A stretch of DNA of 64,000 nucleotides, from contig JAAVTG010000142.1 of NCBI GenBank assembly GCA_011947345.1, forward strand, positions 1-64,000, given 5' to 3'. The notes beneath the pieces were generated by a model, which was not told the origin of the DNA, did not search any database, and saw only the letters and a list, made by a program, of their open reading frames with translations. Of this stretch, positions 11,352 through 45,362 are shown piece after piece. Both the position numbers and the translations under genes were made by a program. The DNA is from Phytophthora quininea (lineage: Eukaryota > Oomycota > Peronosporomycetes > Peronosporales > Peronosporaceae). The first letter of the stretch is position 1; every line of letters starts with the position of its first letter.

Positions 11352-11424
11352 ATTATCAAGCATGCACGCTTGGGACATTTAAAGAGACACCAGTTGCTGT
11401 TCTCACAGCAGCGTTTCGTCACTG

Positions 11425-25869: not shown

Positions 25870-25873
25870 CCAT
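25870..25873. other. Left array boundary, CCAT core
   Basis: Host sequence ...CACCTGA meets CCATACCAAAA here. The same CCAT is found at 28721, 32370, 35220, 38869, 41722 and 45359. Left flank TGA-CCAT plus right flank CCAT-GAC recreate the empty site TGA-CCAT-GAC. Confidence 0.75.
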
Positions 25874-26129
25874 ACCAAAATTTATCCGACCGCCGACCTT
25901 TCCGACGCACACTAGTAGTTTGTATGAATACAAAACTCAAGTTACCCTCCTGGGAAATGCTGAAATGAGTATGCTTATACAAATTGTACATAGTTCCGTA
26001 AAAACTCGAAAAAAGTAAATACGCCGGCACGAATGACTGGCTTCGGCGACGCAAAACTCGCCGACGCGTGTCAGTGCCCAGTGACCGCCCAGGAGGGTGT
26101 ATTGAGGGGTCGTGCCGAACACGGTGCGG

Positions 26130-28454
26130 CTAGCAGGGTTGTCGCCCGCCACGAAGAACTGTGGCGGTGTTAATTCCCCCTCGGGCCTCCAACGAGTATA
26201 CCCCTGTCTTGAGCTGTACTAACCCCCACCTCAGTAGCTCAGTGGTAGAGCACCCGGAAGGGAAGGTCGTTGGGTTCGAACCCCACCTGAGGTATCTCTT
26301 ATGTTTGTGTGGAAGAAGCAGGGCGAGCGAAAACGAGGAGGGAAGAGCGTGGCGACGCGTGTGTATGGGCATCAGCGCGTGTTCGGTGTTAAAGTTGACC
26401 CGGAGACTAACGTGTATTCGGCTGTGTTCAGCGACTAACCCGTTCCAGAATGTTCTGTGTGTATCCGGGGGCAGGGTCTTGGATAGCGGGGTTTGCAGAA
26501 GCTGTTCGTGGCGCTCAATCTTGGAGTTCAACGCGCCAGAGCGGTGAAGAGAACGGAGGTGCTTAAGGACGGCACCGGAGCCACGCGAGCTGATGCCATG
26601 TTCGTCGAGAAAGGCAGCGACGGATTTCTCCGCGCGGATTCCAACGGATAGCACCTGGTCGCAGAAGTTTGCTGCCGTCGTGTCGAGGACAAAGCCGTCA
26701 TCCAAGAACAGCTTCATGTAGGCAACTACCTGCTTGGCTTCGGATCGCTGCTGCTTCGTGATCGGTGCCCGCCACATTGGTGGTTCTTGAGCGTACCAAG
26801 CGTACCAAGTCGCGTGAAGGTGAGTTACTGCTGACCTGCGCTGCTTTTTCTTGATCTGACTGACATCGGGCGCGCTAGTTGCCGGCTTGTCTCGTTTGCG
26901 TGTAGGAGCTTGCAGCTTAGCCTCAAGCGCGTCCATGCGAGCATCTTGACGCTGGACGTGCTCGATAAAGTGGTTAATCACAGCAGCCTGGTGATTGATG
27001 ATCTTCTGTTCTGCGCTTGGTTTCGTCGGTTGCTGGAGTGTGGGCTTTGCAGGTGAAGGTGTGCTATCACCACAGGACGGCTCTGGACTAGCAAGATGTG
27101 ACGACCACGCTAGTAATTCAGCGAACGAGCATCCTGCCTCTGCAACGCAGGCATCGATGCGCATGACAGCAGGGGCTTCAGCGTTCAAGGACTTCAGCAA
27201 CGGGTAGTGGCGGATCACACTTGAGGTGAGCACGTCGAGAACAGCTTGATTAACGTTGTTGCGGGCGGCTTGAAGGTTGTGGCAGGTGGTGAACAGGAGG
27301 TGCTGGAATCTGGAGATCGTGTCCCTCGTCTTCGAGTCGAATGCTGTTAAGTTTTGCAGCACCACAGATGCCTTCGCCTCGTGCCCACTGAGTATCTTGC
27401 TAACCTTGTGATCTTCTTTGCTGGTGTTGAAAATGTAGTTAAACCCCTTGTTTGTTGTGCTCATGTTCCAGGCACCTCGGTCGAAGATCCACCGTGCCGT
27501 GAGCTCATCACTCCCGTTGGCGTGCTGAGCACCGCCACGCCGGAAGGAGTGCGACGTCAGCGCTGTAGTGACTCCAGCAGCTGCAGCGATCCGGTCCAGC
27601 ACGCGGTTCACGTGGGAGTAGATGGTTGGGGTCGTCTCCGCTCCTGCTGTCGTCGGTGGCCTGAGCCCAGTAGACTCAACAGGGTGGTCGAGGACCTCCA
27701 ACAACGGCACGTCTGGAGTGAGTGAGATGGAAGCTTGGGCGGGCGTCTCGGGCAGATTGTCGATGACGTCGGGTGACGGTGCCGTCTGCATGACCAGGGC
27801 CAGCGCCATTGCTAGCAACGGGCAGGTCTCGAACTCTGTTCCGGGGAAGAGGGACAAACCTTGCTCCTCGGATGTCTTCATCCGGATGAAGCGCACGAAG
27901 AGTACGTTGCCGGCATCGATGGACACGTTGGTCTTGCGGAGAAGCGCAAGATCCGAGGCTCTCCCGAACAAGTGCCACAGGAGACACAATAGTGCAGCAT
28001 CCTGGTAGTCAGTAGAGCAGCTCGCATTAACATACAAATACACAAGCATTCGTTTTAAGTCAACCTTTGTACATGGTGGCGCCTTACTGACAAAGCCGCC
28101 GCCGTCACGCTTCATGCAAAAACTATCGAGAGTCTTCCCCATTTTCAGCAGGCGAGCTTCCAATGAGGCTCGATGCTGAGGAAACTGATCGAGCAGCCAA
28201 AGTTTTACCTGCCGATAGTACTGCATCGAGGTGTTTCGAGCCAGCGGCTTGCCTTTCCTGCCCTCATTAAAAGCGAGATGCATTCCAAACTTGTCCATAA
28301 CGGACACAAAACACCTCCCACTCTCATCACGCTCAATACACACACGCACATACTCTTCACTCACACCCTCAGACTTAAGAAACCTCATAAATGCCGCCAC
28401 TGCAGTTGCCTTTGCACGCTTCGTGTTGCCGGGCGCCAACTCCTCTAAACCCAT
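26130..28454 (-). CDS. Tyrosine recombinase YR-A, copy 1 (C-terminal frameshift)
   Basis: Start ATG at 28454 (MGLEELAPGNTKRAKAT). Residues 1-120 form a helical core-binding domain. The catalytic domain has R165 (LFGRASDL), K193 (RMKTSEEQG), H302-x-x-R305 (SHSFRRGG), W329 (RGAWNM) and the nucleophile candidate Y340 (FNYIFNT), the complete tyrosine recombinase set. Residues 345-480 are helical. A coiled-coil/basic stretch (RQDARMDALEAKLQ, KKKQRR) precedes a C-terminal WYAWYAQEPPMW region that may be the DNA-binding domain, as the GCR1_C domain is in fungal Cryptons. This copy runs 100 codons too far because a G run near 26484 lacks a base. Comparison with copy 3 puts the real stop near 26428. 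Confidence 0.85.
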   Translation of the reverse strand: MGLEELAPGNTKRAKATAVAAFMRFLKSEGVSEEYVRVCIERDESGRCFVSVMDKFGMHLAFNEGRKGKPLARNTSMQYYRQVKLWLLDQFPQHRASLEARLLKMGKTLDSFCMKRDGGGFVSKAPPCTKVDLKRMLVYLYVNASCSTDYQDAALLCLLWHLFGRASDLALLRKTNVSIDAGNVLFVRFIRMKTSEEQGLSLFPGTEFETCPLLAMALALVMQTAPSPDVIDNLPETPAQASISLTPDVPLLEVLDHPVESTGLRPPTTAGAETTPTIYSHVNRVLDRIAAAAGVTTALTSHSFRRGGAQHANGSDELTARWIFDRGAWNMSTTNKGFNYIFNTSKEDHKVSKILSGHEAKASVVLQNLTAFDSKTRDTISRFQHLLFTTCHNLQAARNNVNQAVLDVLTSSVIRHYPLLKSLNAEAPAVMRIDACVAEAGCSFAELLAWSSHLASPEPSCGDSTPSPAKPTLQQPTKPSAEQKIINHQAAVINHFIEHVQRQDARMDALEAKLQAPTRKRDKPATSAPDVSQIKKKQRRSAVTHLHATWYAWYAQEPPMWRAPITKQQRSEAKQVVAYMKLFLDDGFVLDTTAANFCDQVLSVGIRAEKSVAAFLDEHGISSRGSGAVLKHLRSLHRSGALNSKIERHEQLLQTPLSKTLPPDTHRTFWNGLVAEHSRIHVSLRVNFNTEHALMPIHTRRHALPSSFSLALLLPHKHKRYLRWGSNPTTFPSGCSTTELLRWGLVQLKTGVYSLEARGGINTATVLRGGRQPC
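26228..26293 (+). tRNA. tRNA-like sequence in element A, copy 1 (shortened anticodon arm)
   Basis: A 7-bp acceptor stem (ACCTCAG/CTGAGGT), a perfect D arm (GCTC-AGTGGTA-GAGC) and a T arm with the canonical loop (TTGGG-TTCGAAC-CCCAC, one mismatch). Internal Pol III promoter boxes are intact: A box TAGCTCAGTGG and B box GGTTCGAACCC. The middle has only 17 bases for anticodon arm plus variable loop, about five too few, and no anticodon can be read. So it is tRNA-derived rather than a working tRNA. No T-run terminator follows directly. The 3' part of the open recombinase frame in copy 1 reads through it in antisense. Confidence 0.7.
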
Positions 28455-28541
28455 GCCTCTCTAGTCGGATAAACGGAAAATATGCGAGTGATATGCTTTT
28501 GACTGCCGTTTTGAGAGGAGATACACATATTTAACGGAGCT

Positions 28542-28562
28542 TTCCGACCCGATACGTCGGAA
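28542..28562. promoter_or_regulatory. 7-7-7 palindrome in element A, copy 1
   Basis: Arms TTCCGAC and GTCGGAA around spacer CCGATAC, 87 bp upstream of the YR-A start codon and 158 bp from the element end. Inverted 7-bp arms around a 7-bp spacer are the geometry of a tyrosine recombinase core site. It could also be an operator for self-repression. Confidence 0.6.
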
Positions 28563-29029
28563 TGGCTGGCTTACATGACTTGCCTTTTCTCTAGACATGC
28601 CATTGGTCAAAACTTGGGATCAGATGCGTAGCGATTGGTTGATAATTTATATTTGAACTTTCATTGGCTTTTAAGATCTATACAAAATCATAATGAAGTC
28701 GGATAAACTGCCATATTCAACCATACAAAGGCGAGTTTACAGGCGGATTCCCAGGCTCTAAAACGGCCTGTGGGCAAAGATAGAGGCAAAAACTAAAACA
28801 TGCATTTTTAGCGCTGCAGAGCCATGTGCTCTGCAGCCGGCAAATTGACAAATGATGCTCGGCCTCCAAAATCGGGGGCCACTAAAAGAGTGGGTACGTA
28901 AAAGCCTGTTCTTACGGGCAGCGTAAATACGCTGGCTTAGTGGCCACGTGTCCACACGAACTGTGTGGCTGGCATTCACTGCCGAGCTGTCATTCGGGAT
29001 TTTGCCGCTCTCAGGCGCAAGTCCCGACC

Positions 29030-29100
29030 GCTCATGATGCCCAGTGGATGGGCCCGAGCTTAAAACACTCGGTGGCGCTGGTTCGATTCCAGCCATGAGC
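29030..29100 (+). tRNA. tRNA-like sequence in element B, copy 1 (full length)
   Basis: Folds as a complete 71-nt cloverleaf plus T discriminator: acceptor GCTCATG/CATGAGC (7 bp), D arm GCCC-AGTGGAT-GGGC, anticodon arm CGAGC-TTAAAAC-ACTCG (four pairs plus a C-A), variable loop GTGGC, T arm GCTGG-TTCGATT-CCAGC (5 bp). The loop would give anticodon AAA, a form rarely used, so decoding function is doubtful. The B box GGTTCGATTCC is perfect. It is followed almost at once by a long TG repeat. Full pairing in three stems says it is either functional or young. Confidence 0.7.
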
Positions 29101-29104
29101 TACA

Positions 29105-29131
29105 GTGCGTGTGCGTGTGCGTGTGCGTGTG

Positions 29132-29199
<68 letters not shown>

Positions 29200-29219
29200 T
29201 GTGTGTGTGTGTGCGCGCG
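29105..29219. repeat. (TG)n microsatellite, element B copy 1
   Basis: TGTGCG units followed by an interrupted (TG)n with TATG breaks. It lies just after the tRNA-like sequence. The corresponding tracts in copies 2 and 3 differ in length and interruptions. Confidence 0.9.
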
Positions 29220-29221
29220 TT

Positions 29222-29353
29222 GAGGTTAACATTGCTGTTCCATTCGGAGGTTAAGCTCTGTGTTCGATGCCGCATACAAATTCATGTTGTGTGTACTCTG
29301 TGACGAGGTTAACTTTGCTGTTCCATCTGGAGGTCAAGCTCAGTGTTCAACGC
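29222..29353. repeat. Pair of about 49-bp direct repeats in element B
   Basis: GAGGTTAACATTGCTGTTCC at 29222 and GAGGTTAACTTTGCTGTTCC at 29305 each start a block of about 49 bp that is about 85% alike by eye (CGGAGGTTAAGCTCTGTGTT against TGGAGGTCAAGCTCAGTGTT), spaced 83 bp apart. The same pair is at 35721/35804 in copy 2 and in copy 3 from about 42215. Their position between the TG tract and the chromodomain gene is constant. Confidence 0.75.
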
Positions 29354-29425
29354 AGTGTAGTGTGATGTATCTAGTGTTGTAAAGCATGTAATACACCCTG
29401 TATTAACCGTTATGATTGACTCATC

Positions 29426-29959
29426 CTATGCTTCTGTGGCGTTGAGCGAGTTGTCTTCTACAGCTTCGTCGTCGATGAAGGCTTTGCGGACAAGCAGGCG
29501 GCGCTCCTTCTCGAAGGCTGCGACGACGGTGGGATTCACGTGGCATCGAGGCTCCCAAGTCGGCTCCCAGTCCACAAGGTAGTACGTGGTGCGGTTCTCA
29601 CGCTTCCAGTTGACGAGCTTGCGCACGTAGTGCTGGGGCTCATCTTCTGGAGCGTCGACCGCGCCTTCGTCGTCTGCAGCCTCCGCGTCAACGCCAGCGT
29701 CTTCGGGAGGGACAAGCCACTCGTGTACATCGTCCAGCGTGGGGCGGCGCTTCTTCCGATCGGCAAGAGCAGCGAAGATCACCTCGAGAGCTTCGGGGAG
29801 GAGACTTGCAGAGGCGACAGTCGTGTTCAAGGTAAGTCGAAGGTGGCGAATAACTTCATCCCTGACACGTATCTTGAACGTCTTTCCAACAGCGATACAG
29901 AGGCCCTTGAACTCCTGCCTTGAGCTGACCGCTTTCTTCGAGGGCTTGCGTGAAGGCAT
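29426..29959 (-). CDS. Chromodomain protein of element B, copy 1
   Basis: 177 residues from the ATG at 29959 (MPSRKPSKKAVSSRQEF), preferred over an upstream frame start because it gives a basic N-terminus and lies after the recombinase stop. The middle (FKIRVRDEVIRHLRLTLN, LPEALEVIFAALADRK, TLDDVHEWL) is helical and loosely recalls a histone-fold or other three-helix module. After an acidic linker comes a chromodomain: HYVRKLVNWKRE, YYLVDWEPTWEP, then a C-terminal helix (VVAAFEKERRLLVRK). Chromodomains read methylated histone tails. In an integrating element this suggests chromatin targeting, as in chromoviruses. The gene lies 98 bp downstream of YR-B on the same strand, so the two may be co-expressed. 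Confidence 0.75.
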   Translation of the reverse strand: MPSRKPSKKAVSSRQEFKGLCIAVGKTFKIRVRDEVIRHLRLTLNTTVASASLLPEALEVIFAALADRKKRRPTLDDVHEWLVPPEDAGVDAEAADDEGAVDAPEDEPQHYVRKLVNWKRENRTTYYLVDWEPTWEPRCHVNPTVVAAFEKERRLLVRKAFIDDEAVEDNSLNATEA

Positions 29960-30056
29960 GGCTGCGTGTTGCGGGTGTAAGATGCAGAATGAACTTTCAA
30001 TTTCGGAGGGACAAGCGGCTGCAAGAACGACTGGCCGCGAAGGTGCGATAATGAAA

Positions 30057-32101
30057 TTAAGCTGCAATCACTAACTCAATGATGTTCTGCGTGTGTCCCG
30101 GTGAAGGATCCATGATGTGACCTCCTCGTTGTAGGTGATTGAAGCGTGCGACGTGTTCATTGAGCAAACCAGACTTGTGGAGCCCCCGCAGGTACTTCAA
30201 CACATTGTTGCCACCGCGCGCTTTGATTCCATGACCACGAAGAAATTCCAGCACCGCGACTTCGGCAGCAGCCCCGACCTCAAGGACATCGTCTCGATAG
30301 CGTGGTGAGCTTTCAACAAGCGTGAAGCCGTCGGTCAGGAAGATTTTCATGAAGCCAACAAGCCACTTCGCGTTGGACCGAGTGTGCTTTGTAGCGCCGT
30401 CGGTCGAGCTCCACATCCGCGGCTCTTGAGCGTACCACGCAAACCAGGTGTCTTTGAGGCTCGAAGCTGGAGAGGTACGTCGTCGCTTGGATGGCTGTTT
30501 GTCGCTACTTGTATCCTCACTTGTTTCCTGCAGTGTTGGTGTCCGTGCGTGTTTGTTGCAGAGCTTAGCCTCCATTACTGTCAAGCGAGCGTCGAGTGTC
30601 TTGTTCACTTGAATTAGTTGTTCAATCAAGGCGGTTTGATGGAGAAACACGGGATGCTTGGTAACATCGGTCGATGCTTCTTGTGGGGCCCCGGTATGTT
30701 GTTCCTCGGTGGGTTTTGGATCACAGGTCAGGTGAGACGACCAAGCCAGCAAGTCATTGACACAGAAGCCTTTCTCGACAGCACAAGCCTCCAGCCGCTG
30801 GATCGCAGGGCCATCAGCCGAAAGAGCCTTCAACGCTGGGTAGTGGCGGAGTAGGTACGCCATGAGAGTCTCGAGCACTGGTGCGTTGACGTTATACTGT
30901 GCGGTGTCAAGCCCAGACGAAGCGACGAATAGCGCTGATGCAACGGAGGCAATTTTCTGGTGCGTGTCCGAGTCGAAGGCGTCGAGCGACAACAGCGGGA
31001 CTTCTGCGTTGGGCTTGCGGTTGCTCAAGACGCGAGCAATCTTGTGGTCTTCTGCTGGAGTGTTGAAAACATACGCGAAGGCCTTGTTCGTCGCTGTCAT
31101 ATTCCACGCGCCTCGGTCGAAGATCCATTGCACGCACATCCCGGCCCCGTTGGCATGCTGATCTCCTCCACGACGGAAGGAGTGCGACGTCAAGCGTTCC
31201 GTGACACCGGCCTTCTGTGCGATTCTCCCCAAGACTCTGTTGACATAGCTATGGATTCCGGGGCGTCGTCGGTAAGCTTCTCCCCATCTGCAGCGTCTTC
31301 GGAGGTTTGAAGTGGAGCAACGTCTTCGGGGTGGTCGATCAAGTCGATGAGAGGCGCAGTCGGAGTCAGAGTGGCTTGCACGTTCGCGTGCTGATCAGGA
31401 AGCTGGCTCAAGAGCGAAGCTGTCGGTGCAGACTGTGTCGCGAGGGCAAGGGCGATGGCGAGCAGCGGGCACGTGGTGAAGTCGTCATCGGGGAAGAGTG
31501 AGAGCCCTTGCTCTTCCGAAGTCTTGATGCGGATGAAGCGGACGAAGAAAATATTCCCGGCGCCGATGGAGAGATTCACCTTGCGAAGCAGCGTGAGGTC
31601 AGACGCTCGTCCGAACAGGAACCACAGCAAGCACAGCAGCGCGGCGTCTTGGTAGTCGGAAGCCGTGGAAGCAGTTGAATACAGGTGCATGACCACCATC
31701 TTGAGCGACTTCTTGGTACACGCTGGGGCCTTGTTGACGAAGGTCCCAGACTCTCTCTTCATACAGTAGCGCTCCAGCACTTGGCCCTTCTTGAGCAGCG
31801 CCTTGTCTGTAGCTTGGCGAACCTGGGGGAACTGGTCCAGCAGCCAGTTCTTGGCCTGTCGGTAGTACTGCATGACCGAGTGCCTGGCCAAGAGCTGACC
31901 CTTGCGTCCTTCCTTGAAGGCCAGATACATGCCGAACTTGTCCACCACCGCTTCCAGGACAAGCGGGGCATTCTCGCGCGCCATGCACACGGCGAGATAC
32001 TCCCAGGTGACACCTTCATCAGCTAGGAACTTCTTGAACGAGCGCGCTGCGCTCTCGCGTGCGCGTTTCGTGCTAATCGGTGCGAGGTCGCGCAGGCTCA
32101 T
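30057..32101 (-). CDS. Tyrosine recombinase YR-B, copy 1 (one internal frame break)
   Basis: ATG at 32101 (MSLRDLAPISTKRARES). The first 200 residues align with YR-A without gaps, including R165 (LFGRASDL) and K193 (RIKTSEEQG). A 1-base shift at a CCCCGG run near 31262 moves the frame to IHSYVNRVLGRIAQKAG and then SHSFRRGG (H-x-x-R), RGAWNM (W) and FAYVFNT (Tyr). A coiled coil (LIEQLIQVNKTLDARLTV), a basic KRRR patch and a C-terminal FAWYAQEPRMW region follow as in YR-A. The C-terminus (DPSPGHTQNIIELV) matches that of YR-A copy 3. The same break occurs in all three copies, so it is either ancestral, a recurrent sequencing error, or programmed. Confidence 0.85.
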
Positions 32102-32191
32102 CTTGGGTCGGAGAGGTCGGAGTTTTCGTGTTATTCAGGAAATATGTGAATGAGTTGGCATTTGTATGGACATATCAATAACAGAGGGGGC

Positions 32192-32212
32192 CTCCGACCC
32201 GATATGTCGGAG
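32192..32212. promoter_or_regulatory. 7-7-7 palindrome in element B, copy 1
   Basis: Arms CTCCGAC and GTCGGAG around spacer CCGATAT, 90 bp upstream of the YR-B start and 157 bp from the element end. The spacer differs from that of element A only in its last base. Confidence 0.6.
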
Positions 32213-32727
32213 CTGCGGCTGGACAGCCTTTATAAGCGTACCCGCCCTGTGATTGGCCAAAAGGGAGGTGGATATCGATATGATTCGTTAAAACTCGGAT
32301 GCAACACTCTGATTGGTCAGTAGCTTTGATAGTGAGTTCTAGTACGGTCGGAGATTTAACGATATTCATCCATACCAAAATTTATCCGACCGCCGACCTT
32401 TCCGACGCACACTAGTAGTTTGTATGAATACAAAACTCAAGTTACCCTCCTGGGAAATGCTGAAATGAGTATGCTTATACAAATTGTACATAGTTCCGTA
32501 AAAACTCGAAAAAAGTAAATACGCCGGCACGAATGACTGGCTTCGGCGACGCAAAACTCGCCGACGCGTGTCAGTGCCCAGTGACCGCCCAGGAGGGTGT
32601 ATTGAGGGGTCGTGCCGAACACGGTGCGGCTAGCAGGGTTGTCGCCCGCCACGAAGAACTGTGGCGGTGTTAATTCCCCCTCGGGCCTCCAACGAGTATA
32701 CCCCTGTCTTGAGCTGTACTAACCCCC

Positions 32728-32793
32728 ACCTCAGTAGCTCAGTGGTAGAGCACCCGGAAGGGAAGGTCGTTGGGTTCGAACCCCACCTGAGGT
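32728..32793 (+). tRNA. tRNA-like sequence in element A, copy 2
   Basis: Identical to the copy-1 sequence, including the shortened anticodon arm. Confidence 0.7.
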
Positions 32794-32928
32794 ATCTCTT
32801 ATGTTTGTGTGGAAGAAGCAGGGCGAGCGAAAACGAGGGAGGGAAGAGCGTGGCGACGCGTGTGTATGGGCATCAGCGCGTGTTCGGTGTTAAAGTTGAC
32901 CCGGAGACTAACGTGTATTCGGCTGTGT

Positions 32929-34953: not shown

Positions 34954-35040
34954 GCCTCTCTAGTCGGATAAACGGAAAATATGCGAGTGATATGCTTTTG
35001 ACTGCCGTTTTGAGAGGAGATACACATATTTAACGGAGCT

Positions 35041-35061
35041 TTCCGACCCGATACGTCGGAA
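35041..35061. promoter_or_regulatory. 7-7-7 palindrome in element A, copy 2
   Basis: Identical to the site in copy 1 (arms TTCCGAC/GTCGGAA). Confidence 0.6.
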
Positions 35062-35528
35062 TGGCTGGCTTACATGACTTGCCTTTTCTCTAGACATGCC
35101 ATTGGTCAAAACTTGGGATCAGATGCGTAGCGATTGGTTGATAATTTATATTTGAACTTTCATTGGCTTTTAAGATCTATACAAAATCATAATGAAGTCG
35201 GATAAACTGCCATATTCAACCATACAAAGGCGAGTTTACAGGCGGATTCCCAGGCTCTAAAACGGCCTGTGGGCAAAGATAGAGGCAAAAAACTAAAACA
35301 TGCATTTTTAGCGCTGCAGAGCCATGTGCTCTGCAGCCGGCAAATTGACAAATGATGCTCGGCCTCCAAAATCGGGGGCCACTAAAGAGTGGGTACGTAA
35401 AAGCCTGTTCTTACGGGCAGCGTAAATACGCTGGCTTAGTGGCCACGTGTCCACACGAACTGTGTGGCTGGCATTCACTGCCGAGCTGTCATTCGGGATT
35501 TTGCCGCTCTCAGGCGCAAGTCCCGACC

Positions 35529-35599
35529 GCTCATGATGCCCAGTGGATGGGCCCGAGCTTAAAACACTCGGTGGCGCTGGTTCGATTCCAGCCATGAGC
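35529..35599 (+). tRNA. tRNA-like sequence in element B, copy 2
   Basis: Identical to copy 1; all stems preserved. Confidence 0.7.
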
Positions 35600-35603
35600 T
35601 ACA

Positions 35604-35630
35604 GTGCGTGTGCGTGTGCGTGTGCGTGTG

Positions 35631-35698
<68 letters not shown>

Positions 35699-35718
35699 TG
35701 TGTGTGTGTGTGCGCGCG
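35604..35718. repeat. (TG)n microsatellite, element B copy 2
   Basis: Same position as in copy 1 but the first TATG interruption is absent, leaving one longer pure TG run. Confidence 0.9.
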
Positions 35719-35924
35719 TTGAGGTTAACATTGCTGTTCCATTCGGAGGTTAAGCTCTGTGTTCGATGCCGCATACAAATTCATGTTGTGTGTACTCTGT
35801 GACGAGGTTAACTTTGCTGTTCCATCTGGAGGTCAAGCTCAGTGTTCAACGCAGTGTAGTGTGATGTATCTAGTGTTGTAAAGCATGTAATACACCCTGT
35901 ATTAACCGTTATGATTGACTCATC

Positions 35925-36458
35925 CTATGCTTCTGTGGCGTTGAGCGAGTTGTCTTCTACAGCTTCGTCGTCGATGAAGGCTTTGCGGACAAGCAGGCGG
36001 CGCTCCTTCTCGAAGGCTGCGACGACGGTGGGATTCACGTGGCATCGAGGCTCCCAAGTCGGCTCCCAGTCCACAAGGTAGTACGTGGTGCGGTTCTCAC
36101 GCTTCCAGTTGACGAGCTTGCGCACGTAGTGCTGGGGCTCATCTTCTGGAGCGTCGACCGCGCCTTCGTCGTCTGCAGCCTCCGCGTCAACGCCAGCGTC
36201 TTCGGGAGGGACAAGCCACTCGTGTACATCGTCCAGCGTGGGGCGGCGCTTCTTCCGATCGGCAAGAGCAGCGAAGATCACCTCGAGAGCTTCGGGGAGG
36301 AGACTTGCAGAGGCGACAGTCGTGTTCAAGGTAAGTCGAAGGTGGCGAATAACTTCATCCCTGACACGTATCTTGAACGTCTTTCCAACAGCGATACAGA
36401 GGCCCTTGAACTCCTGCCTTGAGCTGACCGCTTTCTTCGAGGGCTTGCGTGAAGGCAT
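35925..36458 (-). CDS. Chromodomain protein of element B, copy 2
   Basis: Residue-for-residue identical to copy 1 as far as I can read, with no frame break. Intactness in all copies contrasts with the frame break shared by the three YR-B genes. Confidence 0.75.
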   Translation of the reverse strand: MPSRKPSKKAVSSRQEFKGLCIAVGKTFKIRVRDEVIRHLRLTLNTTVASASLLPEALEVIFAALADRKKRRPTLDDVHEWLVPPEDAGVDAEAADDEGAVDAPEDEPQHYVRKLVNWKRENRTTYYLVDWEPTWEPRCHVNPTVVAAFEKERRLLVRKAFIDDEAVEDNSLNATEA

Positions 36459-36555
36459 GGCTGCGTGTTGCGGGTGTAAGATGCAGAATGAACTTTCAAT
36501 TTCGGAGGGACAAGCGGCTGCAAGAACGACTGGCCGCGAAGGTGCGATAATGAAA

Positions 36556-38600
36556 TTAAGCTGCAATCACTAACTCAATGATGTTCTGCGTGTGTCCCGG
36601 TGAAGGATCCATGATGTGACCTCCTCGTTGTAGGTGATTGAAGCGTGCGACGTGTTCATTGAGCAAACCAGACTTGTGGAGCCCCCGCAGGTACTTCAAC
36701 ACATTGTTGCCACCGCGCGCTTTGATTCCATGACCACGAAGAAATTCCAGCACCGCGACTTCGGCAGCAGCCCCGACCTCAAGGACATCGTCTCGATAGC
36801 GTGGTGAGCTTTCAACAAGCGTGAAGCCGTCGGTCAGGAAGATTTTCATGAAGCCAACAAGCCACTTCGCGTTGGACCGAGTGTGCTTTGTAGCGCCGTC
36901 GGTCGAGCTCCACATCCGCGGCTCTTGAGCGTACCACGCAAACCAGGTGTCTTTGAGGCTCGAAGCTGGAGAGGTACGTCGTCGCTTGGATGGCTGTTTG
37001 TCGCTACTTGTATCCTCACTTGTTTCCTGCAGTGTTGGTGTCCGTGCGTGTTTGTTGCAGAGCTTAGCCTCCATTACTGTCAAGCGAGCGTCGAGTGTCT
37101 TGTTCACTTGAATTAGTTGTTCAATCAAGGCGGTTTGATGGAGAAACACGGGATGCTTGGTAACATCGGTCGATGCTTCTTGTGGGGCCCCGGTATGTTG
37201 TTCCTCGGTGGGTTTTGGATCACAGGTCAGGTGAGACGACCAAGCCAGCAAGTCATTGACACAGAAGCCTTTCTCGACAGCACAAGCCTCCAGCCGCTGG
37301 ATCGCAGGGCCATCAGCCGAAAGAGCCTTCAACGCTGGGTAGTGGCGGAGTAGGTACGCCATGAGAGTCTCGAGCACTGGTGCGTTGACGTTATACTGTG
37401 CGGTGTCAAGCCCAGACGAAGCGACGAATAGCGCTGATGCAACGGAGGCAATTTTCTGGTGCGTGTCCGAGTCGAAGGCGTCGAGCGACAACAGCGGGAC
37501 TTCTGCGTTGGGCTTGCGGTTGCTCAAGACGCGAGCAATCTTGTGGTCTTCTGCTGGAGTGTTGAAAACATACGCGAAGGCCTTGTTCGTCGCTGTCATA
37601 TTCCACGCGCCTCGGTCGAAGATCCATTGCACGCACATCCCGGCCCCGTTGGCATGCTGATCTCCTCCACGACGGAAGGAGTGCGACGTCAAGCGTTCCG
37701 TGACACCGGCCTTCTGTGCGATTCTCCCCAAGACTCTGTTGACATAGCTATGGATTCCGGGGCGTCGTCGGTAAGCTTCTCCCCATCTGCAGCGTCTTCG
37801 GAGGTTTGAAGTGGAGCAACGTCTTCGGGGTGGTCGATCAAGTCGATGAGAGGCGCAGTCGGAGTCAGAGTGGCTTGCACGTTCGCGTGCTGATCAGGAA
37901 GCTGGCTCAAGAGCGAAGCTGTCGGTGCAGACTGTGTCGCGAGGGCAAGGGCGATGGCGAGCAGCGGGCACGTGGTGAAGTCGTCATCGGGGAAGAGTGA
38001 GAGCCCTTGCTCTTCCGAAGTCTTGATGCGGATGAAGCGGACGAAGAAAATATTCCCGGCGCCGATGGAGAGATTCACCTTGCGAAGCAGCGTGAGGTCA
38101 GACGCTCGTCCGAACAGGAACCACAGCAAGCACAGCAGCGCGGCGTCTTGGTAGTCGGAAGCCGTGGAAGCAGTTGAATACAGGTGCATGACCACCATCT
38201 TGAGCGACTTCTTGGTACACGCTGGGGCCTTGTTGACGAAGGTCCCAGACTCTCTCTTCATACAGTAGCGCTCCAGCACTTGGCCCTTCTTGAGCAGCGC
38301 CTTGTCTGTAGCTTGGCGAACCTGGGGGAACTGGTCCAGCAGCCAGTTCTTGGCCTGTCGGTAGTACTGCATGACCGAGTGCCTGGCCAAGAGCTGACCC
38401 TTGCGTCCTTCCTTGAAGGCCAGATACATGCCGAACTTGTCCACCACCGCTTCCAGGACAAGCGGGGCATTCTCGCGCGCCATGCACACGGCGAGATACT
38501 CCCAGGTGACACCTTCATCAGCTAGGAACTTCTTGAACGAGCGCGCTGCGCTCTCGCGTGCGCGTTTCGTGCTAATCGGTGCGAGGTCGCGCAGGCTCAT
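36556..38600 (-). CDS. Tyrosine recombinase YR-B, copy 2 (one internal frame break)
   Basis: Same sequence as copy 1, with the same 1-base shift at the CCCCGG run (near 37761) between the K193 region and the HSFRRGG motif. Confidence 0.85.
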
Positions 38601-38690
38601 CTTGGGTCGGAGAGGTCGGAGTTTTCGTGTTATTCAGGAAATATGTGAATGAGTTGGCATTTGTATGGACATATCAATAACAGAGGGGGC

Positions 38691-38711
38691 CTCCGACCCG
38701 ATATGTCGGAG
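38691..38711. promoter_or_regulatory. 7-7-7 palindrome in element B, copy 2
   Basis: Identical to the site in copy 1 (arms CTCCGAC/GTCGGAG). Confidence 0.6.
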
Positions 38712-39226
38712 CTGCGGCTGGACAGCCTTTATAAGCGTACCCGCCCTGTGATTGGCCAAAAGGGAGGTGGATATCGATATGATTCGTTAAAACTCGGATG
38801 CAACACTCTGATTGGTCAGTAGCTTTGATAGTGAGTTCTAGTACGGTCGGAGATTTAACGATATTCATCCATACCAAAATTTATCCGACCGCCGACCTTT
38901 CCGACGCACACTAGTAGTTTGTATGAATACAAAACTCAAGTTACCCTCCTGGGAAATGCTGAAATGAGTATGCTTATACAAATTGTACATAGTTCCGTAA
39001 AAACTCGAAAAAAGTAAATACGCCGGCACGAATGACTGGCTTCGGCGACGCAAAACTCGCCGACGCGTGTCAGTGCCCAGTGACCGCCCAGGAGGGTGTA
39101 TTGAGGGGTCGTGCCGAACACGGTGCGGCTAGCAGGGTTGTCGCCCGCCACGAAGAACTGTGGCGGTGTTAATTCCCCCTCGGGCCTCCAACGAGTATAC
39201 CCCTGTCTTGAGCTGTACTAACCCCC

Positions 39227-39292
39227 ACCTCAGTAGCTCAGTGGTAGAGCACCCGGAAGGGAAGGTCGTTGGGTTCGAACCCCACCTGAGGT
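39227..39292 (+). tRNA. tRNA-like sequence in element A, copy 3
   Basis: Identical to copies 1 and 2. Confidence 0.7.
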
Positions 39293-39427
39293 ATCTCTTA
39301 TGTTTGTGTGGAAGAAGCAGGGCGAGCGAAAACGAGGGAGGGAAGAGCGTGGCGACGCGTGTGTATGGGCATCAGCGCGTGTTCGGTGTTAAAGTTGACC
39401 CGGAGACTAACGTGTATTCGGCTGTGT

Positions 39428-41455
39428 TCAGCGACTAACCCGTTCCAGAATGTTCTGTGTGTATCCGGGGGCAGGGTCTTGGATAGCGGGGGTTTGCAGA
39501 AGCTGTTCGTGGCGCTCAATCTTGGAGTTCAACGCGCCAGAGCGGTGAAGAGAACGGAGGTGCTTAAGGACGGCACCGGAGCCACGCGAGCTGATGCCAT
39601 GTTCGTCGAGAAAGGCAGCGACGGATTTCTCCGCGCGGATTCCAACGGATAGCACCTGGTCGCAGAAGTTTGCTGCCGTCGTGTCGAGGACAAAGCCGTC
39701 ATCCAAGAACAGCTTCATGTAGGCAACTACCTGCTTGGCTTCGGATCGCTGCTGCTTCGTGATCGGTGCCCGCCACATTGGTGGTTCTTGAGCGTACCAA
39801 GCGTACCAAGTCGCGTGAAGGTGAGTTACTGCTGACCTGCGCTGCTTTTTCTTGATCTGACTGACATCGGGCGCGCTAGTTGCCGGCTTGTCTCGTTTGC
39901 GTGTAGGAGCTTGCAGCTTAGCCTCAAGCGCGTCCATGCGAGCATCTTGACGCTGGACGTGCTCGATAAAGTGGTTAATCACAGCAGCCTGGTGATTGAT
40001 GATCTTCTGTTCTGCGCTTGGTTTCGTCGGTTGCTGGAGTGTGGGCTTTGCAGGTGAAGGTGTGCTATCACCACAGGACGGCTCTGGACTAGCAAGATGT
40101 GACGACCACGCTAGTAATTCAGCGAACGAGCATCCTGCCTCTGCAACGCAGGCATCGATGCGCATGACAGCAGGGGCTTCAGCGTTCAAGGACTTCAGCA
40201 ACGGGTAGTGGCGGATCACACTTGAGGTGAGCACGTCGAGAACAGCTTGATTAACGTTGTTGCGGGCGGCTTGAAGGTTGTGGCAGGTGGTGAACAGGAG
40301 GTGCTGGAATCTGGAGATCGTGTCCCTCGTCTTCGAGTCGAATGCTGTTAAGTTTTGCAGCACCACAGATGCCTTCGCCTCGTGCCCACTGAGTATCTTG
40401 CTAACCTTGTGATCTTCTTTGCTGGTGTTGAAAATGTAGTTAAACCCCTTGTTTGTTGTGCTCATGTTCCAGGCACCTCGGTCGAAGATCCACCGTGCCG
40501 TGAGCTCATCACTCCCGTTGGCGTGCTGAGCACCGCCACGCCGGAAGGAGTGCGACGTCAGCGCTGTAGTGACTCCAGCAGCTGCAGCGATCCGGTCCAG
40601 CACGCGGTTCACGTGGGAGTAGATGGTTGGGGTCGTCTCCGCTCCTGCTGTCGTCGGTGGCCTGAGCCCAGTAGACTCAACAGGGTGGTCGAGGACCTCC
40701 AACAACGGCACGTCTGGAGTGAGTGAGATGGAAGCTTGGGCGGGCGTCTCGGGCAGATTGTCGATGACGTCGGGTGACGGTGCCGTCTGCATGACCAGGG
40801 CCAGCGCCATTGCTAGCAACGGGCAGGTCTCGAACTCTGTTCCGGGGAAGAGGGACAAACCTTGCTCCTCGGATGTCTTCATCCGGATGAAGCGCACGAA
40901 GAGTACGTTGCCGGCATCGATGGACACGTTGGTCTTGCGGAGAAGCGCAAGATCCGAGGCTCTCCCGAACAAGTGCCACAGGAGACACAATAGTGCAGCA
41001 TCCTGGTAGTCAGTAGAGCAGCTCGCATTAACATACAAATACACAAGCATTCGTTTTAAGTCAACCTTTGTACATGGTGGCGCCTTACTGACAAAGCCGC
41101 CGCCGTCACGCTTCATGCAAAAACTATCGAGAGTCTTCCCCATTTTCAGCAGGCGAGCTTCCAATGAGGCTCGATGCTGAGGAAACTGATCGAGCAGCCA
41201 AAGTTTTACCTGCCGATAGTACTGCATCGAGGTGTTTCGAGCCAGCGGCTTGCCTTTCCTGCCCTCATTAAAAGCGAGATGCATTCCAAACTTGTCCATA
41301 ACGGACACAAAACACCTCCCACTCTCATCACGCTCAATACACACACGCACATACTCTTCACTCACACCCTCAGACTTAAGAAACCTCATAAATGCCGCCA
41401 CTGCAGTTGCCTTTGCACGCTTCGTGTTGCCGGGCGCCAACTCCTCTAAACCCAT
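39428..41455 (-). CDS. Tyrosine recombinase YR-A, copy 3 (intact)
   Basis: 675 residues from ATG at 41455 to TGA at 39428; the best reference for the family. The C-terminus (ERHEQLLQTPAIQDPAPGYT, then QNILERVSR) aligns with that of YR-B (DPSPGHTQNIIELV), which supports this reading over the longer version in copy 1. All residues R165, K193, H302, R305, W329 and Y340 are present, so the enzyme may be active. Confidence 0.9.
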   Translation of the reverse strand: MGLEELAPGNTKRAKATAVAAFMRFLKSEGVSEEYVRVCIERDESGRCFVSVMDKFGMHLAFNEGRKGKPLARNTSMQYYRQVKLWLLDQFPQHRASLEARLLKMGKTLDSFCMKRDGGGFVSKAPPCTKVDLKRMLVYLYVNASCSTDYQDAALLCLLWHLFGRASDLALLRKTNVSIDAGNVLFVRFIRMKTSEEQGLSLFPGTEFETCPLLAMALALVMQTAPSPDVIDNLPETPAQASISLTPDVPLLEVLDHPVESTGLRPPTTAGAETTPTIYSHVNRVLDRIAAAAGVTTALTSHSFRRGGAQHANGSDELTARWIFDRGAWNMSTTNKGFNYIFNTSKEDHKVSKILSGHEAKASVVLQNLTAFDSKTRDTISRFQHLLFTTCHNLQAARNNVNQAVLDVLTSSVIRHYPLLKSLNAEAPAVMRIDACVAEAGCSFAELLAWSSHLASPEPSCGDSTPSPAKPTLQQPTKPSAEQKIINHQAAVINHFIEHVQRQDARMDALEAKLQAPTRKRDKPATSAPDVSQIKKKQRRSAVTHLHATWYAWYAQEPPMWRAPITKQQRSEAKQVVAYMKLFLDDGFVLDTTAANFCDQVLSVGIRAEKSVAAFLDEHGISSRGSGAVLKHLRSLHRSGALNSKIERHEQLLQTPAIQDPAPGYTQNILERVSR

Positions 41456-41542
41456 GCCTCTCTAGTCGGATAAACGGAAAATATGCGAGTGATATGCTTT
41501 TGACTGCCGTTTTGAGAGGAGATACACATATTTAACGGAGCT

Positions 41543-41563
41543 TTCCGACCCGATACGTCGGAA
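41543..41563. promoter_or_regulatory. 7-7-7 palindrome in element A, copy 3
   Basis: Identical to the other A copies. Confidence 0.6.
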
Positions 41564-42030
41564 TGGCTGGCTTACATGACTTGCCTTTTCTCTAGACATG
41601 CCATTGGTCAAAACTTGGGATCAGATGCGTAGCGATTGGTTGATAATTTATATTTGAACTTTCATTGGCTTTTAAGATCTATACAAAATCATAATGAAGT
41701 CGGATAAACTGCCATATTCAACCATACAAAGGCGAGTTTACAGGCGGATTCCCAGGCTCTAAAACGGCCTGTGGGCAAAGATAGAGGCAAAAACTAAAAC
41801 ATGCATTTTTAGCGCTGCAGAGCCATGTGCTCTGCAGCCGGCAAATTGACAAATGATGCTCGGCCTCCAAAATCGGGGGCCACTAAAAGAGTGGGTACGT
41901 AAAAGCCTGTTCTTACGGGCAGCGTAAATACGCTGGCTTAGTGGCCACGTGTCCACACGAACTGTGTGGCTGGCATTCACTGCCGAGCTGTCATTCGGGA
42001 TTTTGCCGCTCTCAGGCGCAAGTCCCGACC

Positions 42031-42101
42031 GCTCATGATGCCCAGTGGATGGGCCCGAGCTTAAAACACTCGGTGGCGCTGGTTCGATTCCAGCCATGAG
42101 C
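42031..42101 (+). tRNA. tRNA-like sequence in element B, copy 3
   Basis: Identical to copies 1 and 2. Confidence 0.7.
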
Positions 42102-42105
42102 TACA

Positions 42106-42132
42106 GTGCGTGTGCGTGTGCGTGTGCGTGTG

Positions 42133-42196
<64 letters not shown>

Positions 42197-42211
42197 TGTG
42201 TGTGTGTGCGC
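42106..42211. repeat. (TG)n microsatellite, element B copy 3
   Basis: The shortest of the three tracts. It ends GTGCGCGTTGAGG where the others read GTGCGCGCGTTGAGG. Confidence 0.9.
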
Positions 42212-42418
42212 GTTGAGGTTAACATTGCTGTTCCATTCGGAGGTTAAGCTCTGTGTTCGATGCCGCATACAAATTCATGTTGTGTGTACTCTGTGACGAG
42301 GTTAACTTTGCTGTTCCATCTGGAGGTCAAGCTCAGTGTTCAACGCAGTGTAGTGTGATGTATCTAGTGTTGTAAAGCATGTAATACACCCTGTATTAAC
42401 CGTTATGATTGACTCATC

Positions 42419-42952
42419 CTATGCTTCTGTGGCGTTGAGCGAGTTGTCTTCTACAGCTTCGTCGTCGATGAAGGCTTTGCGGACAAGCAGGCGGCGCTCC
42501 TTCTCGAAGGCTGCGACGACGGTGGGATTCACGTGGCATCGAGGCTCCCAAGTCGGCTCCCAGTCCACAAGGTAGTACGTGGTGCGGTTCTCACGCTTCC
42601 AGTTGACGAGCTTGCGCACGTAGTGCTGGGGCTCATCTTCTGGAGCGTCGACCGCGCCTTCGTCGTCTGCAGCCTCCGCGTCAACGCCAGCGTCTTCGGG
42701 AGGGACAAGCCACTCGTGTACATCGTCCAGCGTGGGGCGGCGCTTCTTCCGATCGGCAAGAGCAGCGAAGATCACCTCGAGAGCTTCGGGGAGGAGACTT
42801 GCAGAGGCGACAGTCGTGTTCAAGGTAAGTCGAAGGTGGCGAATAACTTCATCCCTGACACGTATCTTGAACGTCTTTCCAACAGCGATACAGAGGCCCT
42901 TGAACTCCTGCCTTGAGCTGACCGCTTTCTTCGAGGGCTTGCGTGAAGGCAT
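42419..42952 (-). CDS. Chromodomain protein of element B, copy 3
   Basis: Identical protein to copies 1 and 2, uninterrupted. Confidence 0.75.
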   Translation of the reverse strand: MPSRKPSKKAVSSRQEFKGLCIAVGKTFKIRVRDEVIRHLRLTLNTTVASASLLPEALEVIFAALADRKKRRPTLDDVHEWLVPPEDAGVDAEAADDEGAVDAPEDEPQHYVRKLVNWKRENRTTYYLVDWEPTWEPRCHVNPTVVAAFEKERRLLVRKAFIDDEAVEDNSLNATEA

Positions 42953-43049
42953 GGCTGCGTGTTGCGGGTGTAAGATGCAGAATGAACTTTCAATTTCGGA
43001 GGGACAAGCGGCTGCAAGAACGACTGGCCGCGAAGGTGCGATAATGAAA

Positions 43050-45090
43050 TTAAGCTGCAATCACTAACTCAATGATGTTCTGCGTGTGTCCCGGTGAAGG
43101 ATCCATGATGTGACCTCCTCGTTGTAGGTGATTGAAGCGTGCGACGTGTTCATTGAGCAAACCAGACTTGTGGAGCCCCGCAGGTACTTCAACACATTGT
43201 TGCCACCGCGCGCTTTGATTCCATGACCACGAAGAAATTCCAGCACCGCGACTTCGGCAGCAGCCCCGACCTCAAGGACATCGTCTCGATAGCGTGGTGA
43301 GCTTTCAACAAGCGTGAAGCCGTCGGTCAGGAAGATTTTCATGAAGCCAACAAGCCACTTCGCGTTGGACCGAGTGTGCTTTGTAGCGCCGTCGGTCGAG
43401 CTCCACATCCGCGGCTCTTGAGCGTACCACGCAAACCAGGTGTCTTTGAGGCTCGAAGCTGGAGAGGTACGTCGTCGCTTGGATGGCTGTTTGTCGCTAC
43501 TTGTATCCTCACTTGTTTCCTGCAGTGTTGGTGTCCGTGCGTGTTTGTTGCAGAGCTTAGCCTCCATTACTGTCAAGCGAGCGTCGAGTGTCTTGTTCAC
43601 TTGAATTAGTTGTTCAATCAAGGCGGTTTGATGGAGAAACACGGGATGCTTGGTAACATCGGTCGATGCTTCTTGTGGGGCCCCGGTATGTTGTTCCTCG
43701 GTGGGTTTTGGATCACAGGTCAGGTGAGACGACCAAGCCAGCAAGTCATTGACACAGAAGCCTTTCTCGACAGCACAAGCCTCCAGCCGCTGGATCGCAG
43801 GGCCATCAGCCGAAAGAGCCTTCAACGCTGGGTAGTGGCGGAGTAGGTACGCCATGAGAGTCTCGAGCACTGGTGCGTTGACGTTATACTGTGCGGTGTC
43901 AAGCCCAGACGAAGCGACGAATAGCGCTGATGCAACGGAGGCAATTTTCTGGTGCGTGTCCGAGTCGAAGGCGTCGAGCGACAACAGCGGGACTTCTGCG
44001 TTGGGCTTGCGGTTGCTCAAGACGCGAGCAATCTTGTGGTCTTCTGCTGGAGTGTTGAAAACATACGCGAAGGCCTTGTTCGTCGCTGTCATATTCCACG
44101 CGCCTCGGTCGAAGATCCATTGCACGCACATCCGGCCCCGTTGGCATGCTGATCTCCTCCACGACGGAAGGAGTGCGACGTCAAGCGTTCCGTGACACCG
44201 GCCTTCTGTGCGATTCTCCCAAGACTCTGTTGACATAGCTATGGATTCCGGGGCGTCGTCGGTAAGCTTCTCCCCATCTGCAGCGTCTTCGGAGGTTTGA
44301 AGTGGAGCAACGTCTTCGGGGTGGTCGATCAAGTCGATGAGAGGCGCAGTCGGAGTCAGAGTGGCTTGCACGTTCGCGTGCTGATCAGGAAGCTGGCTCA
44401 AGAGCGAAGCTGTCGGTGCAGACTGTGTCGCGAGGGCAAGGGCGATGGCGAGCAGCGGGCACGTGGTGAAGTCGTCATCGGGGAAGAGTGAGAGCCCTTG
44501 CTCTTCCGAAGTCTTGATGCGGATGAAGCGGACGAAGAAAATATTCCCGGCGCCGATGGAGAGATTCACCTTGCGAAGCAGCGTGAGGTCAGACGCTCGT
44601 CCGAACAGGAACCACAGCAAGCACAGCAGCGCGGCGTCTTGGTAGTCGGAAGCCGTGGAAGCAGTTGAATACAGGTGCATGACCACCATCTTGAGCGACT
44701 TCTTGGTACACGCTGGGGCCTTGTTGACGAAGGTCCCAGACTCTCTCTTCATACAGTAGCGCTCCAGCACTTGGCCCTTCTTGAGCAGCGCCTTGTCTGT
44801 AGCTTGGCGAACCTGGGGAACTGGTCCAGCAGCCAGTTCTTGGCCTGTCGGTAGTACTGCATGACCGAGTGCCTGGCCAAGAGCTGACCCTTGCGTCCTT
44901 CCTTGAAGGCCAGATACATGCCGAACTTGTCCACCACCGCTTCCAGGACAAGCGGGGCATTCTCGCGCGCCATGCACACGGCGAGATACTCCCAGGTGAC
45001 ACCTTCATCAGCTAGGAACTTCTTGAACGAGCGCGCTGCGCTCTCGCGTGCGCGTTTCGTGCTAATCGGTGCGAGGTCGCGCAGGCTCAT
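43050..45090 (-). CDS. Tyrosine recombinase YR-B, copy 3 (several frame breaks)
   Basis: Besides the shared break near the CCCCGG run, this copy has extra 1-base losses in homopolymers: GGGG for GGGGG near 44817, CCC for CCCC near 44220, CC for CCC near 44133 and CCCC for CCCCC near 43178. They garble short stretches. The region between R165 and the HSFRRGG box is read in a wrong frame (the box itself is lost), and the extreme C-terminus is shifted. The stop at 43050 is assigned by comparison with copy 1. Confidence 0.8.
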
Positions 45091-45180
45091 CTTGGGTCGG
45101 AGAGGTCGGAGTTTTCGTGTTATTCAGGAAATATGTGAATGAGTTGGCATTTGTATGGACATATCAATAACAGAGGGGGC

Positions 45181-45201
45181 CTCCGACCCGATATGTCGGA
45201 G
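45181..45201. promoter_or_regulatory. 7-7-7 palindrome in element B, copy 3
   Basis: Identical to the other B copies. It lies 160 bp from the methyltransferase ATG, so it now forms part of that gene's upstream region. Confidence 0.6.
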
Positions 45202-45358
45202 CTGCGGCTGGACAGCCTTTATAAGCGTACCCGCCCTGTGATTGGCCAAAAAGGAGGTGGATATCGATATGATTCGTTAAAACTCGGATGCAACACTCTG
45301 ATTGGTCAGTAGCTTTGATAGTGAGTTCTAGTACGGTCGGAGATTTAACGATATTCAT

Positions 45359-45362
45359 CCAT
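45359..45362. other. Right array boundary, CCAT core overlapping a host start codon
   Basis: Element B3 ends ...ATATTCAT and meets CCATGACGGAG. The last two bases of the core are the first two of the methyltransferase ATG (45361-45363). Confidence 0.75.

Follow-up and report, generated by a model that had tools for sequence, protein, structure and literature searches.

Introduction

CryptonS elements, known from oomycetes and a diatom, are described in the main text of PMC3212892 as encoding a tyrosine recombinase (YR), lacking a GCR1_C domain, and carrying terminal direct repeats of 5 or 6 bp and TATGG termini. The same text proposed movement as an excised circle for Cryptons generally, and stated that, as of 2011, there were no studies on how Cryptons move. 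It contains the word "tandem" only once, in the reference list, and the word "array" never; "composite" is used there for MarCry-1_FO alone, a fusion of a Crypton with a Mariner. Here we analyse a stretch of 64,000 nt of the oomycete Phytophthora quininea (assembly GCA_011947345.1, contig JAAVTG010000142.1, positions 1 to 64,000, i.e. C89:1-64000; "the window"), which contains an array of elements of two families, A and B. Like CryptonS, these elements have a tyrosine recombinase and an oomycete host, and no GCR1_C was found in the recombinases scanned; their CCATA termini are the reverse complement of TATGG. By these tested features, both A and B are assigned to the CryptonS type. With a probability of about 0.63, the array represents a fused CryptonS element in three tandem copies, which was made and multiplied via the recombinase at CCATA cores. 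All genome searches were performed with this single assembly (87.2 Mb, 993 contigs).

Results

Comparison of the window with itself by self-BLAST yielded three head-to-tail units of 6.5 kb at positions 25870-45358, which are ~99.8% identical to one another (the count of three is that of the assembly alone). Positions 25870-38872 match 32370-45362 with 99.82% identity, and positions 25870-32373 match 38869-45362 with 99.77% identity. The terminal motif ATATTCAWCCATACMAA was searched with up to 2 mismatches allowed, and the five matches in the window (28713, 32362, 35212, 38861, and 41714) are all exact. The expected number is 0.01, and five matches were reached in none of 100 dinucleotide shuffles. 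The threefold repeat of a 6.5-kb unit, which an earlier note had claimed from the letters of the window, is thus borne out by the alignments and the five motifs.

Each unit consists of an element A and an element B', a 5′-clipped version of B. In unit 1, A is a complete CryptonS-like element of 2,851 bp (25870..28720), and solo copies elsewhere have the same two ends; B' (28721..32369) lacks 140 bp of the left end that is found in copies outside the window. By self-comparison, the corresponding elements are located at 32370..35219 (A) and 35220..38868 (B') in unit 2 and at 38869..41721 (A) and 41722..45358 (B') in unit 3, all on the plus strand. Each unit therefore has the left arm of A, the right arm of B, and two recombinase genes. 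The coding regions of A and B share ~66-69% DNA identity, and the recombinase segments of the window, YR-A and YR-B, share 47-57% protein identity, so that A and B are treated as separate families.

An empty counterpart of the array site was found by a flank search of the same assembly. On contig C338, both array flanks are present and are separated only by the four bases CCAT. Identity in the left flank amounts to 99.1-99.2% along 1.5-2.4 kb, and the right flank is 99% identical over its first 663 bases and 96.4% identical over 2.2 kb (29 mismatches, 50 gap positions). Since the flanks align this closely with a single CCAT between them, C338 is most likely the other allele of the array site. 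The site reads CACCTGA-CCAT-GACGG, and its CCAT overlaps the ATG with which a methyltransferase gene starts. In the array allele, this target repeat is present twice, at 25870..25873, where the element reads CCATAC, and at 45359..45362, which together with the next base contains the ATG. The methyltransferase gene (45361..45990, plus strand; putative exons 45361-45522 and 45595-45990, as read from the sequence) is abutted by the array at its start. Four of seven aligned relatives start at the same column and the other three within two residues; the nearest relatives are from Phytophthora and downy mildews. In the array allele, the 5′ flank and this start codon are therefore 19.5 kb apart.

Element A is a complete, dispersed element. 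Its left end and right end gave 21 and 26 matches, respectively, each count including the three window copies. Twenty loci outside the window were fetched, and the left end and the right end were each seen at 18 of them. The left end starts with CCATA in 15 of 18 cases (exceptions: L016, L022, and L024), and the right end is followed by CCATA in 17 of 18 cases (exception: L022 on C129; the boundary of L028 is off by one base). Inspection by eye, with any allelic doubles retained, showed that the flanks vary by locus, except for the left flank of a pair on C527 and some recurring repeats. The two loci of this pair (L013 and L014, C527:220300-227300 and C527:231000-238000) carry A copies that are 10.7 kb apart and 99.96% identical. 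Their left flanks agree for ~2 kb, as far as the sequence was fetched, and their right sides diverge just after CCATA; they represent a duplication with a breakpoint at an A end.

For element B, the earlier note had taken position 28721 (35220 and 41722 in units 2 and 3) as the usual left end, and A and B as two complete adjacent elements. The comparison with outside copies contradicted the first assumption and did not support the second. A query of 28721-29020 had 39 matches in the assembly, three of which are the window copies, and the left-end regions were fetched for 31 of the 36 outside matches (the other five are further fragments in C642, C677, and C420). A left end of 140 bp outward of the window's B start is present in 28 of these 31 copies, of which 26 were recognised by script from the last bases of this end, L052, with one base different, by eye, and the copy of C552 by an alignment over all 140 bp at 88% identity; at L080 (C134) there is no alignment at this end. 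The usual left end reads CCATAGC(GT)AAAA...CTCCGACC or near variants. The window copies start at an internal CCATA, the 140-bp end and the left arm motifs (see below) are absent, and the right end of A is in their place. Four outside copies were compared in full length (C543, C786, and two of C858). Of these, the C543 copy, in which the 140-bp end is present, is nearest to the array B' (99.6% identity, 13 substitutions), whereas the C786 copy, the one that follows an A, differs by 81 substitutions. The A|B' boundary is most readily interpreted as a fusion point, and the evidence agrees better with a 6.5-kb unit that acts as a single element than with two complete elements.

Alternatively, B could exist in a short form with a natural second left end at the internal CCATA, and the array would then combine a complete A with a complete short B. 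Contigs C642 (L082, C642:127700-130700) and C677 (L096, C677:1850-2420), which share a flank and represent one locus, speak for this alternative: the first base of their B copy corresponds to position 2 of the window's B, the 140-bp end is missing, and the neighbouring sequence is not A but unrelated. However, this one locus is decayed (83% and 75% identity) and further rearranged, the array B' is nearly identical to a long-form copy, the long form prevails among the fetched copies, and there is no TCCGAC arm motif near the left end at 28721. The short form is thus quite improbable as an explanation of the array. Because the array B' is so similar to the end-bearing C543 copy, its clip is recent and separate from the old one at C642/C677. 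Further B fragments are present on these two contigs in inverted arrangement. At the start of contig C858 (L065, C858:1-190), two B right ends are inverted relative to each other and face each other over a short stretch of ATATCC-type repeats.

The fusion itself could have occurred by two routes with the same product: the 140-bp end could have been lost from an A|B tandem, or A could have inserted into the internal CCATA of a B elsewhere, followed by transfer of the part from the A left end to the B right end to the present site. The latter, nested route would need only one normal insertion of A and would yield the exact A|B' joint, i.e. A followed by the CCATAC of B. None of the 31 fetched left ends showed a B with an A inserted at this point, and the loss of the end from a tandem like the one on C786 gives the same result, so that the nested route is possible, but somewhat doubtful.

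Stacking of elements was also found elsewhere in the genome. On C858, positions 29616-40675 contain ten elements in the order N (six copies), B, N, B, N, ahead of a diverged B copy. N is an element of 453 bp with B-like ends, which is too short to hold a recombinase. The left flank and the diverged B recur on the minus strand of C639, where they adjoin each other directly; the flank is 94.5% and the B copy 93.9% identical to C858. The difference between the two contigs amounts to 11.06 kb and is located exactly at the left-end CCATA of the older B copy. C858 and C639 form a natural before/after pair for stacking at the element's own end, with gain on C858, rather than loss on C639, as the presumed direction; the identity of ~94% is compatible with alleles or with older duplicates. 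The suggestion of the earlier note that one site may accept further elements is supported by this pair.

On C786, an A is directly followed by a B with both ends. A genome-wide search with a junction pattern (up to 1 mismatch) resulted in 14 matches, i.e. ten on C858, one on C786, two in the window, and one on C151, where no element end lies on the right; as a control, the pattern was reversed and had no match. In this search, the B|A joint occurred in the window only. None of the other fetched left ends (31 outside B copies) had the A|B' joint. Of the A-B pair proposed in the earlier note, adjacency thus recurs once, on C786 and with a full B, and the joint of the array does not recur among the fetched left ends. 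The search for solo A and solo B, which the note had also proposed, was successful for both, and most fetched copies have no such neighbour. It is therefore highly improbable that the two families regularly move together as partners in a pair. The three adjacent pairs of the array and the one pair on C786 would agree with such a partnership, but nearly all other fetched A and B copies lack the partner, B' is without its usual left end, and the partner of B on C858 is N and not A.

At L022 (C129:109000-116000), an N copy joins A at a CCATA inside the right end of A, ten bases before the usual end, which is another case of core use at an internal position. On C636, C643, C566, and C622, N copies are broken near positions 287-380 by ~2.5 to 10.6 kb of foreign sequence, and these interruptions are possibly insertions at a CCAT inside N.

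The differences between the three units of the array are almost solely indels in homopolymers and in a (GT)n repeat, plus few substitutions. The B' parts are 1, 3, and 4 substitutions apart, and unit 3 has a (GT)n length of its own and few private substitutions. Homopolymer indels are of the kind that sequencing makes, and the assembly contains apparent allelic duplicates with the same flanks (C829/C830, C531/C532, C855/C857, and C639/C640), both of which would be compatible with an assembler having expanded one unit, or another number of units, to three. The private differences of unit 3 argue against such an artefact, as does the C858 array, which is of different make-up and has a stack-free counterpart; we regard it as improbable.

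The high identity of the units and their few substitutions could also indicate that only the fusion at CCATA was due to the recombinase, and that the tandem multiplication occurred by unequal homologous recombination or replication slippage between duplicated units. Long tandem repeats expand readily by homologous exchange, and the two B copies of C858 are also alike (99.3% identity). However, the first step from one to two units would still require an exchange between short ends, and the junctions fall on CCATA. In addition, the order of the elements on C858 and the 26 substitutions between its two B copies do not fit one simple recent duplication. We consider homologous multiplication rather unlikely as the whole explanation of the tandem copies, although the expansion to three units may have been due to the recombinase or to homologous exchange.

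Inspection of the ends revealed two motifs, TCCGAC near the left end (position +15 or +16) and GTCGGA near the right end (position -23), which are present in A, in two full B copies, and in N. In A of unit 1, they are located at 25885..25890 (position +16) and 28698..28703 (position -23), and the right motif of B' in unit 3 is located at 45336..45341 (position -23, measured on unit 1, which has the same sequence), all on the plus strand. Among the B copies, the motif is present in 24 of 26 left-end regions and in 26 of 28 right-end regions, when the offset is not fixed. The motifs may be bound by the recombinase, and we refer to them as candidate arms. Joining the two ends, as in a would-be circle, creates inverted repeats of 10 bp for A|A, 14 bp for B|B (C543), and 10 bp for N|N, each of which was reached in 0 of 500 shuffles that preserved single-base content only. 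The inverted repeat at the A|B' junction has 6 bp and is at chance level (89 of 500 shuffles). The sole junction of the array with arm motifs on both sides is B'|A, i.e. the unit boundary. This fits the dimer, rather than A or B' alone, as the repeated unit, without being a proof.

To characterise the target, 28 insertion sites for which the two flanks could be read were kept (13 of A, 14 of B, and the window). CCAT is present at all 28 sites and CCATA at 26 of them; the next two positions have a weak preference, and the leftward signal does not exceed 0.16 bits. The B right ends were chosen with a query that contained CCA, so that the CCA is partly given by construction, which does not apply to the following T and A. 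The kept sites overlap in part: L013 and L014 have a common left flank, right flanks recur in L013/C129 and in C372/C576, and the right side of L015 is a B element. The A loci L016, L022, and L024 to L028 were left out, as an end was broken, missing, or shifted. Also left out were C50 170476-174049 (left end CTATA, right side CCATA), the B of C786, the C858 copies, the allelic doubles C829, C531, C855, and C640, and the damaged or one-ended B copies of C551, C412, C514, C786 (two more), C134, C420, C552, C419, C639 (minus strand), C642, and C677. Outside the array, CCATA occurs 45 times in 44.5 kb, which extrapolates to ~88,000 sites in the genome. A random choice of CCATA would therefore give far fewer than the three stacked loci seen among a few dozen insertions, by a rough estimate and not by a statistical test.

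The YR-A open reading frames (ORFs) are located on the minus strand and encode 774 aa in unit 1 (26130..28454; its C-terminus differs via homopolymer indels), 674 aa in unit 2 (32929..34953), and 675 aa in unit 3 (39428..41455). The protein of unit 3 has a Pfam Phage_integrase match of 20.6 bits, which is under the cut-off of 27.1 bits, and a predicted Cre-like fold. Of 7,987 candidates that were scored, 175 relatives of YR-A had E values of 0.001 or lower, and those named by organism among the 120 listed are from oomycetes (Phytophthora, Globisporangium, Aphanomyces, and Pythium). In an alignment of 39 sequences, i.e. YR-A and 38 of the 120 listed relatives, R165, K193, H302, R306, W329, and Y340 are invariant, and R305 is conserved to at least 90%. 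We take these seven to be the catalytic residues of a tyrosine recombinase. The predicted YR-A model has a mean predicted local distance difference test (pLDDT) score of 80.8, with values below 50 at residues 323-341, which include the tyrosine. Its best structural matches are Cre chains (E value 2.1e-4, probability 1.00, template modelling scores of only 0.2-0.4), and FLP scored lower. Searches of PDB sequences had one match at an E value of 0.26 and otherwise none.

The YR-B coding regions, which were placed as tyrosine recombinases by their similarity to YR-A, are also on the minus strand. In unit 1, the region is distributed over two frames (30057..32101; ORFs of 303 and 391 aa), and it is split likewise in unit 2 (36556..38600). 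In unit 3 (43064..45089), which has frame differences due to homopolymer indels, an ORF of 637 aa (43064-44977) is present, with the start region in another frame. Taken together, the identity values, the conserved residues, and the predicted fold support the view of the earlier note that the array contains two diverged families with Crypton-type recombinases. The GCR1_C domain was not found in the recombinases scanned with Pfam (two proteins to E values of 1 or lower), and an assignment to CryptonF, for which GCR1_C beside the YR is expected, was rejected.

B' contains a second ORF on the minus strand (213 aa in unit 1, 29426..30067; unit 2, 35925..36566; unit 3, 42419..43060). Its 44 relatives are often named chromo domain-containing protein. 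This name comes from the relatives' annotations; Pfam gave no name for the ORF itself, and of five proteins scanned, one had a match to Pfam Chromo, which was below the cut-off. A predicted protein of Phytophthora citrophthora (P0031, 834 aa) has, by eye, a recombinase and a stretch similar to the second ORF of B in one chain.

Both elements have a tRNA-like module on the plus strand, opposite to the recombinase. The modules of A are located at 26228-26294, 32728-32794, and 39227-39293 (Rfam tRNA, 42.0 bits), and those of B' at 29030-29101, 35529-35600, and 42031-42102 (Rfam tRNA, 45.4 bits). Rfam detected both modules and ARAGORN that of B only. The A module has a short anticodon arm; we rejected an ordinary working tRNA gene, and a tRNA-derived module is likelier. 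The A module belongs to the least diverged 67-bp stretches of A: over 12 outside copies, an equal or lower divergence was found for 11 of 278 sliding windows. In the genome, the B module has 37 matches and the A module 22, most of which are at listed A or B loci; others include C858:57114, C639:113535, and matches on C56 and C659. A tRNA-like module in a Phytophthora Crypton is not new in kind: the available text of PMC3522703 describes a tRNA-like infSINEp insertion in Crypton6 of Phytophthora infestans. There, too, the module is located towards the Crypton end; here it is present in two families, and identity as the same short interspersed element is not implied.

Outside the array, the window contains an inverted repeat of 823 bp (11420-12241 and 15828-16649, 99.4% identity) with a middle of 3.6 kb and two ORFs of at least 150 aa in the region. 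A target repeat is not evident at its ends.

Discussion

The fusion and the stacking at CCATA are best explained by the recombinase of the elements. The CCATA core at the right end of a complete A would have been joined to the internal CCATA 140 bp inside B. The fusion would have left a B without its left end and left arm motifs, and the product would have had the left arm of A, the right arm of B, and two recombinase genes. This product, or its parts in succession, would have entered the CCAT that overlaps the host start codon. Multiplication would then have occurred by tyrosine-recombinase exchange at B'|A, either as repeated integration of an excised circle or as unequal exchange between sister copies. 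We infer the recombinase as the maker of the fusion and of the tandem copies, the order of the steps, and the circle intermediate from the anatomy of the array, the empty site, the missing left end of B, the arm motifs, and the stacked loci elsewhere, which were observed directly.

Several observations weigh against this explanation. The inverted repeat at the hybrid B|A junction, at which the exchange is proposed, is modest (8 bp, 15 of 500 shuffles), and the arm motif of A is in place at 14 of 18 left ends and 14 of 18 right ends. In the assembly, none of the units has YR-B as one continuous open frame from its start. A further A|B' joint was not found among the fetched left ends, nor a further B'|A joint in the genome-wide junction search, and the fused unit may have formed and multiplied in place. 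The decayed B of C642/C677 begins at the internal CCATA without A, which may reflect reuse of the internal core or a short form of B. Finally, the near-identity of the units is explained as well by homologous unequal crossing-over.

The genome supplies natural before/after pairs (C338 versus C89, and C639 versus C858), a rule for the target (CCAT, preferably followed by A), and candidate arms at fixed offsets in three families. The fused element predicts which junctions can and cannot recombine, and a model of excision and integration becomes directly testable. In addition, the fused unit illustrates one origin of new composite mobile elements. Tentatively, eukaryotic YR transposons might behave like bacterial integrative elements: ends would be reused as attachment sites, families would stack, and stray recombination at CCATA would fuse two families into a new two-recombinase element with hybrid ends, of which the 6.5-kb unit could be one, caught in one of two alleles.

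Such Crypton arrays were not found in the literature searched, in which the coverage of subscription journals is thin. The kind of element is known, i.e. CryptonS; the fused two-family unit and the stacked arrays are new. The present analysis adds to the main text of PMC3212892 the fused unit with two recombinase genes, a stack for which a before/after pair exists, and the arm motifs. The non-autonomous Cryptons CryptonI-1N1_RPro and CryptonA-1N1_OL described in that article are comparable to N, which has B-like ends, but N makes a head-to-tail run of six. In comparison with the Cre/loxP and FLP systems, the predicted fold of YR-A is alike, but YR-A has a long C-terminal region, and its candidate arms lie away from the core. 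Tandem integration of a site-specific element is described for bacterial integrative elements such as SGI1 (in the available text of PMC2297512), and the outcome is alike; SGI1 is bacterial and uses specific attachment sites, whereas the array of P. quininea is built from a eukaryotic element with a target of 4-5 bp.

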